Positions 46,121 to 62,591 of a DNA stretch of 64,000 nt are shown here, piece by piece (positions within the stretch are counted from its first letter, which is position 1; each line of letters opens with the position of its first letter). Below the pieces are notes generated by a model, which saw only the letters and a list, made by a program, of their open reading frames with translations, was not told the origin of the DNA and ran no database searches. Source of the DNA: Panopea generosa (taxonomy: Eukaryota; Mollusca; Bivalvia; Adapedonta; Hiatellidae). The stretch lies in NCBI GenBank assembly GCA_029582155.1, contig CM055901.1:50225206-50289205 (forward strand). The letters are read 5' to 3'. The translations under genes were made by a program, and so were the position numbers.

Positions 46121-46858
46121 ACTTGGTTATAGTTTCTGTATGTATCTATATCATATATCTAGATATATGCCTGATACATCAATAATTTCCATGATGCAAC
46201 ATTATCATTAATTCTTTTCTATTGTCACTCTTTTATTCTATACAATAATCAAACAAGTTAACAATGGCATCCAGAAATTGTCACTAACAAAAGCGTTTAA
46301 ATATTCACCTGCCACAAGAATAGCTTGGCAGTGGTATTCAATGAAAAACAAATGGACAGATTATGGAAGCCACTAAGTATAAACAGATTTCTGTTAAATG
46401 ACCAAATTTGCATTCTTTTTCACCAGATAAAGTCTCCCTATCAAATCTTTTAATTGCCTTTATCAAGTTGAAGATAATTTGAATACGGAACTATGATGTA
46501 GAAAAGGCATTAATTATTGTTAACCTTTGTAGTTGATGGAGGTGCAGGCAGGTATGCCGGATATGGTTGCATTAATTTCTTTTGAAATTGGAAATTATAC
46601 TAATTGGTGCTCTAGATAAGGTGCTTGCAGCTCTTTAGTAAGTACAAACACATATAGGGAGTGAGAGCAGGGGTCCTGGACACTTACAAAGGATCATAAT
46701 ATTATCATGGATTGCAGTTCATAAAAGTTGTTTTACTAATTGAAATGTGAATACGAGTGGCACAGGGGACATGACAGTCCTAATTATTATCTCATTACAA
46801 TCAGAAATTGATTATTTCTTAATATGTGCATCTTCATTGGCAGATTTTTGAATGATAA
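46121..46858. other. unique AT-rich DNA
   Basis: No feature seen. Confidence 0.5.
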
Positions 46859-47797
46859 CACCAGTTCAACATATCACAGTTATATATGGCAACCAGATTA
46901 ACACCAGCTCAACATATCACAGTTATATATGGCAACCAGATTAACACCAGTTCAACACATCACAGTTATATATGACAACCAGATTAACACCAGTTCAACA
47001 CATCACAGTTATATATGGCAACCAGATTAATACCATTTCAACACATCACAGTTATATATGGCAACCAGATTAACACCAGTTCAACATATCACAGTTATAT
47101 ATGGCAACCAGATTAACACCTGTTCAACATATCACAGTTATATATGGCAACCAGATTAACACTAGTTCAACACATCACAGTAATATATGGCAACCAGATT
47201 AACACTAGTTCAACACATCACAGTTATATATGGCAACCAGATTAATACCATTTCAACACATCACAGTTATGTATGGCAACCAGATTAATACCATTTCAAC
47301 ACATCACAGTTATATATGGCAACCAGATTAACACCAGTTCAACACATCACAGTTATATATGGCAACCAGATTAACACAAGTTCAACACATCAAAGTGATA
47401 TATGGCAACCAGATTAACACCAGTTCAACACATCACAGTTATATATGGCAACCAGATTAACACCATTTCAACACATCACAGTTATATATGTCAACCAGAT
47501 TAACACCAGTTCAACACATCACAGTTATATATGGCAACCAGATTAATACCATTTCAACACATCACAGTTATATATGGCAACCAGATTAACACCATTTCAA
47601 CACATCACAGTTATATATGTCAACCAGATTAACACCAGTTCAACACATCACAGTTATATATGGCAACCAGATTAATACCATTTCAACACATCATAGTTAT
47701 ATATGGCAACCAGATTAACACCATTTCAACACATCACAGTTATATATGGCAACCACATTAATACCATTTCAACACATCACAGTTATATATGGCAACA
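46859..47797. repeat. 43-bp tandem repeat, about 22 units, from the SINE tail
   Basis: The unit contains CACCAGTTCAACACATCACA then GTTATATATGGCAACCAGAT and TAA. It aligns with the family C tail at 62362-62403 (CATTTTCAACACATTTCAGG, TTATATATGGCATATCCAGT). CCATTTCAACAC and CCAGTTCAACAC variants alternate in blocks. Confidence 0.95.
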
Positions 47798-47885
47798 AAT
47801 TTAATTGGTGGAGACCCCATGTTCATTATAATCTGAGTAAGAACCACCATTGTCCTGCAAGTAGCTGGAAAACTTTCTCACATAT

Positions 47886-50800
47886 TTGGACCTGGCTGGG
47901 GTCCATTAAAGCCATGACCTCAGCAGTGAGAGCAAAGTGTTTGGACCTGGCTGGGATCCATTAAAGCCATGACCTCAGCAGTGAGAGCAAAGTGTTTGGA
48001 CCTGGCTGGGGTCCATTAAAGCCATGACCTCAGCAGTGAGAGCAAAGTGTTTGGACCTGGCTGGGGTCCATTAAAGCCATGACCTCAGCAGTGAGAGCAA
48101 AGTGTTTGGACCTGGCTGGGATCCATTAAAGCCATGACCTCAGCAGTGAGAGCAAAGTGTTTGGACCTGGCTGGGGTCCATTAAAGCCATGACCTCAGCA
48201 GTGAGAGCAAAGTGTTTGGACCTGGCTGGGGTCCATTAAAGCCATGACCTCAGCAGTGAGAGCAAAGTGTTTGGACCTGGCTGGGGTCCATTAAAGCCAT
48301 GAACTCAGCAGTGAGAGCAAAGTGTTTGGACCTGGCTGGGGTCCATTAAAGCCATGAACTCAGCAGTGAGAGCAAAGTGTTTGGACCTGGCTGGGGTCCA
48401 TTAAAGCCATGAACTCAGCAGTGAGAGCAAAGTGTTTGGACCTGGCTGGGGTCCATTAAAGCCATGAACTCAGCAGTGAGAGCAAAGTGTTTGGACCTGG
48501 CTGGGGTCCATTAAAGCCATGACCTCAGCAGTGAGAGCAAAGTGTTTGGACCTGGCTGGGGTCCATTAAAGCCATGAACTCAGCAGTGAGAGCAAAGTGT
48601 TTGGACCTGGCTGGGGTCCATTAAAGCCATGACCTCAGCAGTGAGAGCAAAGTGTTTGGACCTGGCTGGGGTCCATTAAAGCCATGAACTCAGCAGTGAG
48701 AGCAAAGTGTTTGGACCTGGCTGGGGTCCATTAAAGCCATGACCTCAGCAGTGAGAGCAAAGTGTTTGGACCTGGCTGGGGTCCATTAAAGCCATGAACT
48801 CAGCAGTGAGAGCAAAGTGTTTGGACCTGGCTGGGGTCCATTAAAGCCATGACCTCAGCAGTGAGAGCAAAGTGTTTGGACCTGGCTGGGGTCCATTAAA
48901 GCCATGAACTCAGCAGTGAGAGCAAAGTGTTTGGACCTGGCTGGGGTCCATTAAAGCCATGACCTCAGCAGTGAGAGCAAAGTGTTTGGACCTGGCTGGG
49001 ATCCATTAAAGCCATGACCTCAGCAGTGAGAGCAAAGTGTTTGGACCTGGCTGGGGTCCATTAAAGCCATGACCTCAGCAGTGAGAGCAAAGTGTTTGGA
49101 CCTGGCTGGGGTCCATTAAAGCCATGACCTCAGCAGTGAGAGCAAAGTGTTTGGACCTGGCTGGGGTCCATTAAAGCCATGACCTCAGCAGTGAGAGCAA
49201 AGTGTTTGGACCTGGATGGGGTCCATTAAAGCCATGAACTCAGCAGTGAGAGCAAAGTGTTTGGACCTGGCTGGGGTCCATTAAAGCCATGAACTCAGCA
49301 GTGAGAGCAAAGTGTTTGGACCTGGCTGGGGTCCATTAAAGCCATGAACTCAGCAGTGAGAGCAAAGTGTTTGGACCTGGCTGGGGTCCATTAAAGCCAT
49401 GACCTCAGCAGTGAGAGCAAAGTGTTTGGACCTGGCTGGGGTCCATTAAAGCCATGAACTCAGCAGTGAGAGCAAAGTGTTTGGACCTGGCTGGGGTCCA
49501 TTAAAGCCATGAACTCAGCAGTGAGAGCAAAAAGTTTGGACCTGGCTGGGGTCCATTAAAGCCATGAACTCAGCAGTGAGAGCAAAGTGTTTGGACCTGG
49601 CTGGGGTCCATTAAAGCCATGACCTCAGCAGTGAGAGCAAAGTGTTTGGACCTGGCTGGGGTCCATTAAAGCCATGAACTCAGCAGTGAGAGCAAAGTGT
49701 TTGGACCTGGCTGGGGTCCATTAAAGCCATGACCTCAGCAGTGAGAGCAAAGTGTTTGGACCTGGCTGGGGTCCATTAAAGCCATGAACTCAGCAGTGAG
49801 AGCAAAGTGTTTGGACCTGGCTGGGGTCCATTAAAGCCATGAACTCAGCAGTGAGAGCAAAGTGTTTGGACCTGGCTGGGGTCCATTAAAGCCATGACCT
49901 CAGCAGTGAGAGCAAAGTGTTTGGACCTGGCTGGGGTCCATTAAAGCCATGAACTCAGCAGTGAGAGCAAAGTGTTTGGACCTGGCTGGGGTCCATTAAA
50001 GCCATGACCTCAGCAGTGAGAGCAAAGTGTTTGGACCTGGCTGGGGTCCATTAAAGCCATGAACTCAGCAGTGAGAGCAAAGTGTTTGGACCTGGCTGGG
50101 GTCCATTAAAGCCATGACCTCAGCAGTGAGAGCAAAGTGTTTGGACCTGGCTGGGGTCCATTAAAGCCATGACCTCAGCAGTGAGAGCAAAGTGTTTGGA
50201 CCTGGCTGGGGTCCATTAAAGCCATGACCTCAGCAGTGAGAGCAAAGTGTTTGGACCTGGCTGGGATCCATTAAAGCCATGAACTCAGCAGTGAGAGCAA
50301 AGTGTTTGGACCTGGCTGGGGTCCATTAAAGCCATGACCTCAGCAGTGAGAGCAAAGTGTTTGGACCTGGCTGGGGTCCATTAAAGCCATGAACTCAGCA
50401 GTGAGAGCAAAGTGTTTGGACCTGGCTGGGGTCCATTAAAGCCATGACCTCAGCAGTGAGAGCAAAGTGTTTGGACCTGGCTGGGGTCCATTAAAGCCAT
50501 GACCTCAGCAGTGAGAGCAAAGTGTTTGGACCTGGCTGGGGTCCATTAAAGCCATGACCTCAGCAGTGAGAGCAAAGTGTTTGGACCTGGCTGGGGTCCA
50601 TTAAAGCCATGAACTCAGCAGTGAGAGCAAAGTGTTTGGACCTGGCTGGGGTCCATTAAAGCCATGACCTCAGCAGTGAGAGCAAAGTGTTTGGACCTGG
50701 CTGGGGTCCATTAAAGCCATGAACTCAGCAGTGAGAGCAAAGTGTTTGGACCTGGCTGGGGTCCATTAAAGCCATGACCTCAGCAGTGAGAGCAAAGTGT

Positions 50801-51829
50801 TTGGACCTGGCTGGGGTCCATTAAAGCCATGAACTCAGCAGTGAGAGCAAAGTGTTTGGACCTGGCTGGGGTCCATTAAAGCCATGAACTCAGCAGTGAG
50901 AGCAAAGTGTTTGGACCTGGCTGGGGTCCATTAAAGCCATGACCTCAGCAGTGAGAGCAAAGTGTTTGGACCTGGCTGGGGTCCATTAAAGCCATGAACT
51001 CAGCAGTGAGAGCAAAGTGTTTGGACCTGGCTGGGGTCCATTAAAGCCATGAACTCAGCAGTGAGAGCAAAGTGTTTGGACCTGGCTGGGGTCCATTAAA
51101 GCCATGACCTCAGCAGTGAGAGCAAAGTGTTTGGACCTGGCTGGGGTCCATTAAAGCCATGACCTCAGCAGTGAGAGCAAAGTGTTTGGACCTGGCTGGG
51201 ATCCATTAAAGCCATGAACTCAGCAGTGAGAGCAAAGTGTTTGGACCTGGCTGGGGTCCATTAAAGCCATGACCTCAGCAGTGAGAGCAAAGTGTTTGGA
51301 CCTGGCTGGGGTCCATTAAAGCCATGAACTCAGCAGTGAGAGCAAAGTGTTTGGACCTGGCTGGGGTCCATTAAAGCCATGACCTCAGCAGTGAGAGCAA
51401 AGTGTTTGGACCTGGCTGGGGTCCATTAAAGCCATGACCTCAGCAGTGAGAGCAAAGTGTTTGGACCTGGCTGGGGTCCATTAAAGCCATGACCTCAGCA
51501 GTGAGAGCAAAGTGTTTGGACCTGGCTGGGGTCCATTAAAGCCATGAACTCAGCAGTGAGAGCAAAGTGTTTGGACCTGGCTGGGGTCCATTAAAGCCAT
51601 GACCTCAGCAGTGAGAGCAAAGTGTTTGGACCTGGCTGGGGTCCATTAAAGCCATGAACTCAGCAGTGAGAGCAAAGTGTTTGGACCTGGCTGGGGTCCA
51701 TTAAAGCCATGACCTCAGCAGTGAGAGCAAAGTGTTTGGACCTGGCTGGGGTCCATTAAAGCCATGAACTCAGCAGTGAGAGCAAAGTGTTTGGACCTGG
51801 CTGGGGTCCATTAAAGCCATGACCTCACG
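47886..51829. repeat. 55-bp satellite, 71 complete units plus a partial, from the SINE body
   Basis: The unit contains TTGGACCTGGCTGGGGTCCA then TTAAAGCCATGACCTCAGCA and GTGAGAGCAAAGTGT. The first unit starts at 47886 and the last at 51791, exactly 71 x 55 bases apart, so no net insertion or deletion has accumulated. The main variation is GACCTCAGCA versus GAACTCAGCA, and a rarer GGGTCC versus GGATCC change at 47956, 48121, 49001, 50266 and 51201. SINE copies elsewhere carry GACC, so GAACT is the derived form. The unit aligns with 10671-10728. Confidence 0.97.
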
Positions 51830-51930
51830 ATGAGAGGTAAGTAATCTAAGATGGTGCCAAGACCCACTCACTGAAAACTATTATAACTTTTAACTGGTGT
51901 TGTTACTGGTTAATTGTACACACTTAAAAG

Positions 51931-53000
51931 TTAAACAAGAGGCCCAAGAGGGCCTGACGATGCTCTACTGACTCATAGTGGCCATACAACTTTTTTTAAT
52001 TCGCCTATGCAATAGAAACATCTGGGCGGGGTCAGTTTTAACCTTAGGGACACCATTTAAACAAATTTAACAAAACTATAGTTGGTCATCATTACTACTT
52101 TATAAACATTTTGAAAATCTGTTGTGCCGTTCATGAGAAGAAGAGGTTTTAAGTTTTGGACTATTTTCAGTAATGGTGGCCATCTTGAATTTAGATAGAA
52201 AAAAAAAATCTTCTGTATAGTCTCCTATGCAATAGAAACATTCATGTGAAGTTTCAGTTTAATTGGCCTAGTGGTTTAAGAATAAATGAAAAAATAGTGA
52301 ATTTTCTGTTTTCCCCAAGTATCCCTAGGTAAAATTCTAAGTCCCCTTACAGGGCCCCTATAAATTTTAACCCCTAAATTCGTATCTGCAATCAAACCCC
52401 TACACATAGGGATAATTTATATCAAATATGTACAAATCTGACATAGCGGTTCTTAAGAAAACGATTTTAGTAATTCCCAATTTGTACCCTTTTGGGGCCC
52501 CTCCTTAAGACATAGGAACCCAGTCATTTTTACAATTCTGAACCTCCTTCACTTAACAATGCTTTTGTGAAGATATAGGCAAAATCATTTCCATTTAGAA
52601 AAAATAAATAAAAAAATATCATAATGACATGACATTGTGTCCCATAATTGAATCCTCAGGGAGGGGTCATTTTTAACCCTAGGGACACCATTTGAACAAA
52701 TCTAACAAAAGTATAGTTGGTCATCATTACTACATAAACAATTGAAAATCTGTAGGGTTGTTCATGACAAGAATATTTTTTTTAAGTTTTGGACTATTTT
52801 TAGTAATGGCGGTCATCTTGAATTTCAGATTGAAAAAAATCTTCTGTTTAGTCTCCTATGCAATAGAAACATCCATGTGAAGTTTCAGTTTAATTGGCCC
52901 AGTGGTTTCAGAGAAAGTGCTGCTAACAGATGACAGACAAGGAACGGACAACGCACCATCGCATAAGCACTTCTGGCCTTTGGCCAGTAGAGCTAAAAGT
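51931..53000. mobile_element. non-autonomous dispersed element with hairpin ends
   Basis: The left end reads TTAAACAAGAGGCCCAAGAG with a GGCCC/GGGCC hairpin, then GATGCTCTACTGACTCAT. The right end reads GGCCTTTGGCCAGTAGAGC then TAAAAG. GCTCTACTG and CAGTAGAGC form subterminal inverted repeats. Inside, a segment beginning TTTTAACC(T/C)TAGGGACACC near 52036 recurs about 633 bases later near 52671, including TCTCCTATGCAATAGAAACA at 52221 and 52852. I remember elements with the GAGGCCC...GGGCC start from mollusc genomes; the class is unclear. No coding frame. Confidence 0.65.
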
Positions 53001-60758: not shown

Positions 60759-61884
60759 ATGGCAACAACTTTGGTGGAGGACGCATTAAGATGAATCTGA
60801 CCAGAATCAGTCCTTCCACAACTGGCAAATTTTCTCACATAAAATGTTTAGATCAAGCTGTGCTCATACCCAGGACCTCAGCAGTGAGAGTTAAGTGATC
60901 GCAGCTGGGCTCGTTCCCAGGACGTCAGCATTTAGAGTTAACTGATCTCAACTGGACTCGTACCCAGGACCTCAGCAGAGAGAGTTAAGTGATCTCAGTT
61001 GGGATTGTACCCAGGACATCAGCAGTGACAGTTAAGTGATCTCAGCTGGGCTTGTACCCAGGACCTCAGCAGTGACAGTTAAGTGATATCAGCTGGGCTC
61101 GTACCCAGGACATCAGCTGTGACAGTCAAGTGATCTCGGCTGGGCTTGTACCCAGGACCTCAGCAGTGACAGTTAAGTGATCTCAGCTGGGCTCGTACCC
61201 AGGACCTCAGCAGTGCGAGTTAAGTGATCGCAGCTGGGCTCGTACCCAGGACCTCAGCAGTGACAGTTAAGTGATCTCAGCTGGGCTCGTAACCAGGACC
61301 TCAGCAGCGAGAGTTCAGTGATCGCAGCTGGGCTCGTACCCAGGACCTCAGCAGAGAGAGTTAAGTGATCTCAGCTGGGCTTGTACCCAGGACCTCAGTA
61401 GTGACAGTTAAAGTGATCTCAGCTGGGCTCATACCCAGGACCTCAGCAGTGAGAGTTAAGTGATTGCAGCTGGGCCCGTACACAGGACCTTAGCAGTGAG
61501 AGTTAACGGATCTCAGCTGGACTCATACCCTGGACCTCAGCAGTGAGAGTTAAGTGATCACAGCTGGGCTCGTACCCAGGACCTCAGCAGTGACAGTTAA
61601 GTTATCGCATCTGGGCTCGTACCCAGGACCTCAGCAGTGACAGTTAAGTGATCTCAGCTGGGCTCGTACCCAGGACCTCAGCAGTGACAGTTTAGTGATC
61701 TCAGCTGGGCTTGTACCCAGGACCTCAGCAGTGACAGTTAAGTGATCGCAGCTGGGCTCGTACCCAGGACCTCAGCAATGACAGTTAAGTGATTTTAGCA
61801 GGGCTTGTACCCAGGACCTCAGCAGTGACAGTTTAGTGATCTCAGCTGGGCTCATACCCAGGACCTCAGCAGTGACAGTTAAGA
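60759..61884 (-). mobile_element. SINE family C copy swollen by a 47-bp array
   Basis: The single-copy part reads GGCAACAACTTTGGTGGAGG, ATGAATCTGACCAGAATCAG, ACTGGCAAATTTTCTCACAT, AAAATGTTTAGATCAAGCTG on the plus strand. It leads directly into the array, whose first unit is in register with the SINE. The head beyond the array is missing or lost. Confidence 0.85.
60857..61884. repeat. 47-bp tandem repeat, about 22 units, from the SINE body
   Basis: The unit contains GCTGGGCTCGTACCCAGGAC then CTCAGCAGTGACAGTTAAGT and GATCTCA. It aligns with the same part of family C as the 55-bp satellite at 47886-51829 (ACCTCAGCAGTGAGAG, TAAGTGATC) but uses a different segment length and end point. CTCGTACCCAGG versus CTTGTACCCAGG and GATCTCAG versus GATCGCAG vary between units. 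Confidence 0.96.
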
Positions 61885-62317: not shown

Positions 62318-62591
62318 ACCAAGGGATCTTTTTTTTTTTTAATTGGTTTCAATTAATGCCATTTTCAACACATTTCAGGTTATATATGGCATATCCAGTT
62401 GGTGGAGGAAGACCTCAGAATAAATCTGAGTAGAACCACTGTCCTTCTGCAACAAACTGGCAAACTTTCTCGCATTAAGTTATTGGAATGAGTGAGACTT
62501 GAACCAACAACCTTAGCGGTGATAGGCAAGTGTTCTTGAGATGACGCCTTAGACCACTCGGCCATGGAGGTCCCTACCAAGGGATCTTTTT
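62318..62591 (-). mobile_element. SINE family C, full length with 16-bp target duplication
   Basis: ACCAAGGGATCTTTTT occurs at 62318-62333 and again at 62576-62591, a perfect target-site duplication. The body between (62334-62575) runs on the minus strand from head (GGACCTCCATGGCCGAGTGG, TCTAAGGCGTCATCTCAAGA, box B TTGGTTCAAGTC) through GAGAAAGTTTGCCAGTTTG and TGGTTCTACTCAGATTTATT to the tail (TATATAACCTGAAATGTGTT). The head is class-II tRNA-like with anticodon position CAA, so a Leu-like origin is inferred. This copy defines the family limits. Confidence 0.93.

Follow-up and report, generated by a model that had tools for sequence, protein, structure and literature searches.

One SINE copy in Panopea generosa contains two different tandem arrays, very probably amplified in place

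A single SINE copy in the genome of Panopea generosa contains two different tandem arrays, one of a 43-bp unit and one of a 55-bp unit, and the unamplified parts of the element still stand in their original order between and beside them. The locus was studied in a window, a stretch of 64,000 nucleotides whose positions are used below, and was followed up in the 1.47-Gb genome. An earlier note, made from the letters of the window, had proposed that one SINE of its family C had turned from a 240-base element into a 5-kb block by amplifying its tail as about 22 units of 43 bp and its body as 71 units of 55 bp. The block, the two arrays, their unit counts and the order of the unamplified parts were all borne out; the 55-bp unit, however, was found to come from the box-B side of the tRNA-like head instead of the body. 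The arrays very probably began as tandem duplications in place, a step that microhomology often primed, and then grew by unequal exchange.

In an old copy of this dispersed SINE of about 240 bp, two internal segments would have been amplified where they stood. Replication slippage or repair would first duplicate each segment, in many cases across 3-4 bp of microhomology present by chance, and the duplicate would then grow by unequal exchange or slippage, several units at once. In this way the copy would have gone from about 240 to 5,000 bases by in-place copying of two segments, with a final count of 22 units in the 43-bp array and 72 in the 55-bp array. The growth steps are deduced from the assembly of a single individual.

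Table 1. SINE features in the window, with positions in the window
Feature	Position	Strand	Remarks
3' end of the two-array SINE copy, ATTTTTGAATGA (A-run end, + strand reading)	46846..46857	-	left of the 43-bp array; compared by eye with the consensus start TTTTTTGAATGGGG
43-bp unit array, 21.9 copies, 94% matches	46856..47796	-	TRF; from the SINE 3' region, consensus ~8-57
Unamplified SINE middle	47798..47885	-	score 63; within the continuous profile match 47758-47941
55-bp unit array, 71.7 copies, 98% matches	47885..51827	-	TRF; from the box-B half of the tRNA-like head, consensus ~146-200
Unamplified rest of the head (box-A side)	51830..51876	-	score 36; profile match 51784-51869, E=1.3e-4
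Array-free full-length copy of the same SINE family	62334..62575	-	ACCAAGGGATC flanks on both sides; profile match 62352-62574, E=1.2e-75
Second array-bearing copy of the family: body, then 47-bp array (21.9 copies, box-B region)	60771..61883	-	TRF; profile match 60771-60900, E=7.1e-21

The two-array copy is read on the minus strand, with its tRNA-like head at the right and its 3' region and A-run at the left. The final ~16 bases of the head are unrecognisable at the right end, box B cannot be recognised by eye in the 55-bp array, and no target-site duplication is visible by eye around the copy. The locus is at C8:50272061-50277081 of 76670739 bases, which is not a subtelomeric position. Beside the SINE lies a dispersed repeat (51935-52071) that is 88% identical over 139 bp to the flank of L089, an array-bearing copy elsewhere.

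The parent family is dispersed. A first look at the genome gave 5052 candidates, and all 40 that were scored match the SINE, with 82-100% identity. A 241-bp consensus was made from the full-length copy in the window and 20 of the 39 other scored matches; these 21 copies amount to 20 distinct ones, because L011 and L012 look identical in both element and flanks. Target-site duplications were seen by eye around two copies, ACCAAGGGATC at 62334-62575 and CCCCATCATTA at L011, and the 3' end of the SINE has an A-run. The motifs GGCCGAGTGGTCTAAGGCG and GGTTCGAGTCC fit the consensus of box A and box B, and the middle region may resemble the Meta domain, the central domain shared by the MetaSINE / Deu / V / Core superfamily. 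ARAGORN found no tRNA in the SINE by default and one undefined tRNA at 12-92 in relaxed mode; Rfam gave no tRNA match in 10 SINE copies or loci. The SINE is apparently tRNA-derived. An Rfam match to MIR869 that overlaps the SINE in L011 (E=2.6e-05) was discarded, since it is far below the curated thresholds, as are the other Rfam matches. Five short strings from the SINE found no match in the text of the papers searched.

The 43-bp array, the 55-bp array and the single-copy pieces are one SINE copy in its original order. A profile of length 236 was built from the 21 genomic copies and run on the 64-kb window, where it matches the two array-bearing copies and at least six clear array-free copies (E below 1e-10), plus weaker ones. 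In the two-array copy the match is unbroken over 47758-47941 (profile 9-195 of 236, E=1.4e-23), passing from the last 43-bp unit through the single-copy middle into the first 55-bp unit. A second match (profile 137-220) exits the last 55-bp unit into the right piece. The pieces were also aligned locally with the 21-copy consensus and compared with 2000 dinucleotide shuffles each. No shuffle scored as high as the 43-bp unit (44), the middle piece or the right piece, and nothing stood out when the same pieces were aligned on the opposite strand. The units thus align better than shuffled sequence and the piece at 47798-47885 is related to the family, the two points on which the earlier note had staked its claim.

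By itself the 55-bp unit is a weak match, since one of its 2000 shuffles equalled its score of 26; single 55-bp units match the profile with E ~0.004-0.3 each in the 64-kb window. With such figures the 55-bp array might be thought to resemble the SINE by chance, or the whole block to be an assembly artefact. Either is hardly credible, given that continuous profile matches cross both edges of the 55-bp array, entering its first unit and leaving its last, and that the second array-bearing copy in the window has amplified an overlapping region of the head, whose 47-bp unit matches more strongly (score 41, 0 of 2000 shuffles). Alignment with the full-length copy at 62334-62575, the check that the earlier note had suggested, also found the match, in weaker form: 3 of 1000 shuffles scored as high as the 55-bp unit and 19 of 1000 as high as the right piece. 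The single copy was set aside as the reference in favour of the 21-copy consensus and the profile, which give stronger support.

The units of both arrays are more alike than the SINE copies are. Mean pairwise identity is 93.7% in the 43-bp array (22 units, the 22nd extending a few bases into the middle piece) and 98.7% in the 55-bp array (71 units), and the full-length window copy is 82-87% identical to the other scored SINE copies. The SINE parts of the block diverge by 12-26% from the family consensus at aligned bases: 67 of 76 aligned bases are identical in the middle piece, with 18 gapped columns, and 37 of 50 in the 55-bp unit, with 6 gapped columns. Growth of the arrays may have come long after the insertion of the SINE, or exchange may maintain their uniformity. 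We infer that the 55-bp array is younger or better homogenised than the 43-bp array. Two unit types alternate in the 55-bp array (lag-2 match 0.57 and lag-1 match 0.26, where 0.42 is expected), and a block of 13 units is found again 17 units further on, a length that was reached in 17 of 5000 shuffles and in 26 of 5000 transition-preserving shuffles. The alternation and the recurring block fit exchange in multi-unit steps. Unit identity is almost flat with distance in both arrays, up to lag 15.

By a genome search the 55-bp array is local to this SINE copy. A two-unit 55-bp query returned 35 matches in the genome, 34 of them in its own array and one in an ordinary SINE on C14; the search scores the best candidates, and both of the query's two candidates were scored. 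Birth inside the SINE is the best-supported reading because the 55-bp array matched only that one ordinary SINE elsewhere and because its units are 98.7% alike, against the 12-26% divergence of the SINE parts. To that extent the earlier description of a satellite born inside a transposable element stands, with the amendment that the sizes of their units and of the arrays place them among the minisatellites.

A two-unit 43-bp query gave 46 matches among the best candidates, 10 in its own array; the others lie in tail-derived arrays with different unit lengths or elsewhere, and among the loci fetched L093, L094 and L097 are single SINE matches without an array of the query unit. The genome search that the earlier note had called for thus found further array-bearing copies of the family, with different breakpoints and units of ~20-67 bp. 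The tail of a near-complete SINE is a 44-bp array of 21 units in L089, another near-complete SINE holds a 54-bp array of 30 units (L090), and three units sit inside a SINE that can be read nearly end to end in L106. A 67-bp unit (consensus ~23-78) fills all 9 kb of L091 (1-9001, C3:24765000-24774000) and the first 4.7 kb of L092 (1-4676, C3:24782000-24786675), 8 kb further on; perhaps the two are one array of more than 20 kb. At L101 (C1:99480400-99481000) the SINE has an internal deletion that joins the box-A region to the body, and a 34-bp array of 8.1 copies spans the join. L107 had been considered as a case of two separate duplications, but a 59-bp unit with a deletion explains its 37-bp unit better. 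In the window, the array of the second copy (60856-61883) holds ~22 near-box-B sites, since its 47-bp unit keeps GGTACGAGCCC (minus strand) where the family has GGTTCGAGTCC.

Arrays were counted genome-wide as places where three identical SINE cores stand at array-like spacing, against the reversed pattern; these are overlapping places, not loci. The tail core gave 4074 places (107 reversed), the head core 4743 (405 reversed), the body core 1249 (95 reversed) and the box-A region core 1882 (67 reversed). A single array hotspot in the SINE was rejected, as all four cores exceed the reversed pattern. For each core up to 100 places were listed; by eye, the listed tail and box-A matches resemble the parent SINE. 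The head and body counts overstate the family, because many head places and some body places look like something other than the SINE, such as a 59-bp unit beginning GTAGAACCACCTTTGTG. A 59-bp unit beginning GTAGAACCACCTTTGTGTATG was seen at C1:60022463, C2:38018037, C2:45443793, C3:10960528, C3:48853859, C3:68914198 and C3:88864418, and resembles either a single dispersed satellite or a different mobile element that has repeats inside it.

When tail places no more than 5 kb apart were grouped, the first 69.8 Mb of C1 held 13 loci, with units of ~20, 24, 49, 52, 55, 59 and 61 bp. If this stretch is typical, there are roughly 275 tail loci in the genome. No body or box-A match is listed within 10 kb of the 13 loci, and no head match is listed within that distance of the 12 loci covered for that core. 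Both arrays of the two-array copy do fit the exact three-core patterns. As far as exact patterns can tell, copies with two large arrays look rare, because none of the 13 other tail-array loci shows a second array among the matches listed. The window itself has about 21 separate tandem arrays by hand count of TRF output, most of them without a SINE profile match; 3 of the ~21 are SINE-derived, a count that does not demonstrate an enrichment of arrays in the SINE over this array-rich background.

It is an evenly balanced question whether this family acts throughout the genome as a nursery of minisatellites, in which hundreds of copies independently duplicated segments of ~20-67 bp, often through 3-4 bp of microhomology, and grew them in place, and in which one copy can do so twice. 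If so, the genome would keep every stage of the process and the parent sequence would be given to the exact base; the stages would run from L106, with three units in a near-complete SINE, to L091, with at least 9 kb of one unit.

Breakpoints could be read at both ends in eight arrays: the 43-bp and 55-bp arrays of the window, L089, L090, L101, L102, L107 and, once, the 55-bp tail type (L106). L099, L100 and L104 were left out as the same type, and L091, L092, L103, L105, L108-L111 and the 47-bp array of the window were left out as having ends that were unclear or not both seen. Five of the eight have at least 3 bp of microhomology at the breakpoint: AATA in L090, GTCA in L102, CTC in L101, TAA in the 43-bp array of the window, and CAG in L106, or TCAG with the family consensus as the left flank. 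The other three have little or none (1 bp in L089 and in L107, 0 in the 55-bp array of the window). The family consensus contains an AAGT pair that could have been used for the 55-bp unit, but the pair is absent from the two-array copy today. Since the chance of at least 3 bp at a random consensus junction is 0.050, five of eight gives a binomial probability of 1.5e-5, with phases judged by eye at fetchable loci and a random-junction null that ignores subfamilies. These figures support the mechanism without proving it.

One breakpoint pair recurs. For the 55-bp tail unit, exact TCAG junctions number 1192 against 0 reversed, and the first 75.7 Mb of C1 hold seven loci that have them. At these seven, arrays may have been born repeatedly with the same two breakpoints, or a duplicated source may have been copied. 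The latter would be expected if the SINE had spread already carrying duplicated segments, from an array-bearing or dimeric source that was retrotransposed, and the arrays had been inherited. As an account of the arrays in general this is unlikely: the 55-bp array of the window was found nowhere else in the genome search, and the other arrays differ in breakpoints and unit lengths. Furthermore, just one of the seven TCAG loci on C1 (67.07 Mb) has a single exact junction, and therefore there is no crowd of dimers among the matches listed. The flanks of 13 array loci (some of them very short), compared at E 1e-3 after the SINE matches were masked, have only one dispersed repeat of 139 bp in common, and that between two loci.

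The arrays could also have come from outside, as rolling-circle products or pre-existing satellites that integrated into the SINE, in the manner discussed for Helitrons and circles. Tandem repeats linked to Helitrons are reported in bivalves in the excerpted text of PMC12628747, and the block repeats in the 55-bp array could come from circle integration as well. We consider such an origin very improbable, since the SINE segments that the single-copy pieces lack between them are exactly those that the units match, with strand and order both agreeing, and the genome search found no donor array for the 55-bp unit. Duplication and growth in place remains the reading we prefer.

Arrays arising from mobile elements are already known in other animals, from human Alu, squamate SINEs and a limpet SINE, and the comparison here draws on excerpts of the papers cited. 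The closest parallel is with the SINE-derived satellites (sSats) of scaled reptiles described by Vassetzky, Kosushkin and Ryskov 2023 (PMC10702118). Both the 43-bp and the 55-bp array are sSats in this sense, in that they have at least four tandem units, each derived from the SINE and shorter than it, and their end units run on into SINE sequence (by the profile at the array edges, and by eye at the left end). As in the excerpted account of squamates, units come from any part of the SINE and differ by locus, array ends enter SINE sequence, longer arrays are more uniform and subvariants alternate; in a further likeness, the snake unit includes box B (PMC10702118). The squamate units are 67-290 bp, compared with ~20-67 bp here, and tend to be subtelomeric, whereas the window locus is at 50.27 of 76.67 Mb. 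In squamates mostly one end unit reaches the SINE terminus and both sides are uncommon, whereas both sides remain here, and the excerpts of PMC10702118 describe no SINE copy that holds two large arrays of different units. Among the titles and abstract openings listed from the literature, with few subscription papers covered, there was likewise no report of two different arrays in one SINE copy.

In Alu, Ahmed and Liang 2012 (PMC3389668) tie tandem repeats within the SINE to short direct repeats and give an AluJo with 17 units of 52 bp as an example; for Alu-derived minisatellites they refer to Jurka and Gentles 2006. Growth in place and short direct repeats are shared with the present case; from the excerpts, Alu arrays mostly have 2-3 units, against 22 and 72 in one copy here, and belong to a different SINE family (PMC3389668). 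A review (PMC12628747) discusses microhomology as a route by which transposable elements give rise to satellites; its model for the Xenopus MITE miDNA4 likewise has direct repeats of a few bp starting internal arrays, in a MITE and not a SINE. In another mollusc, the limpet Patella caerulea, the satellite PcH-sat is derived from a Nin-SINE and carries a portion of this tRNA SINE in its unit (PMC11121367). It is a 179-bp pericentromeric repeat that makes up ~10% of the genome, whereas the arrays here are local and the parent copy is readable around them.

The window locus is a very clear example of a known process. The beginnings of tandem repeats are usually invisible because the starting sequence has been lost; here the parent is known, unamplified parts adjoin both arrays and sister copies amplified other segments, and this makes it possible to read breakpoint rules, growth steps and relative ages. 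Alu and reptile SINEs had already shown the principle, and the value of the Panopea family is that of a rich and clean system.
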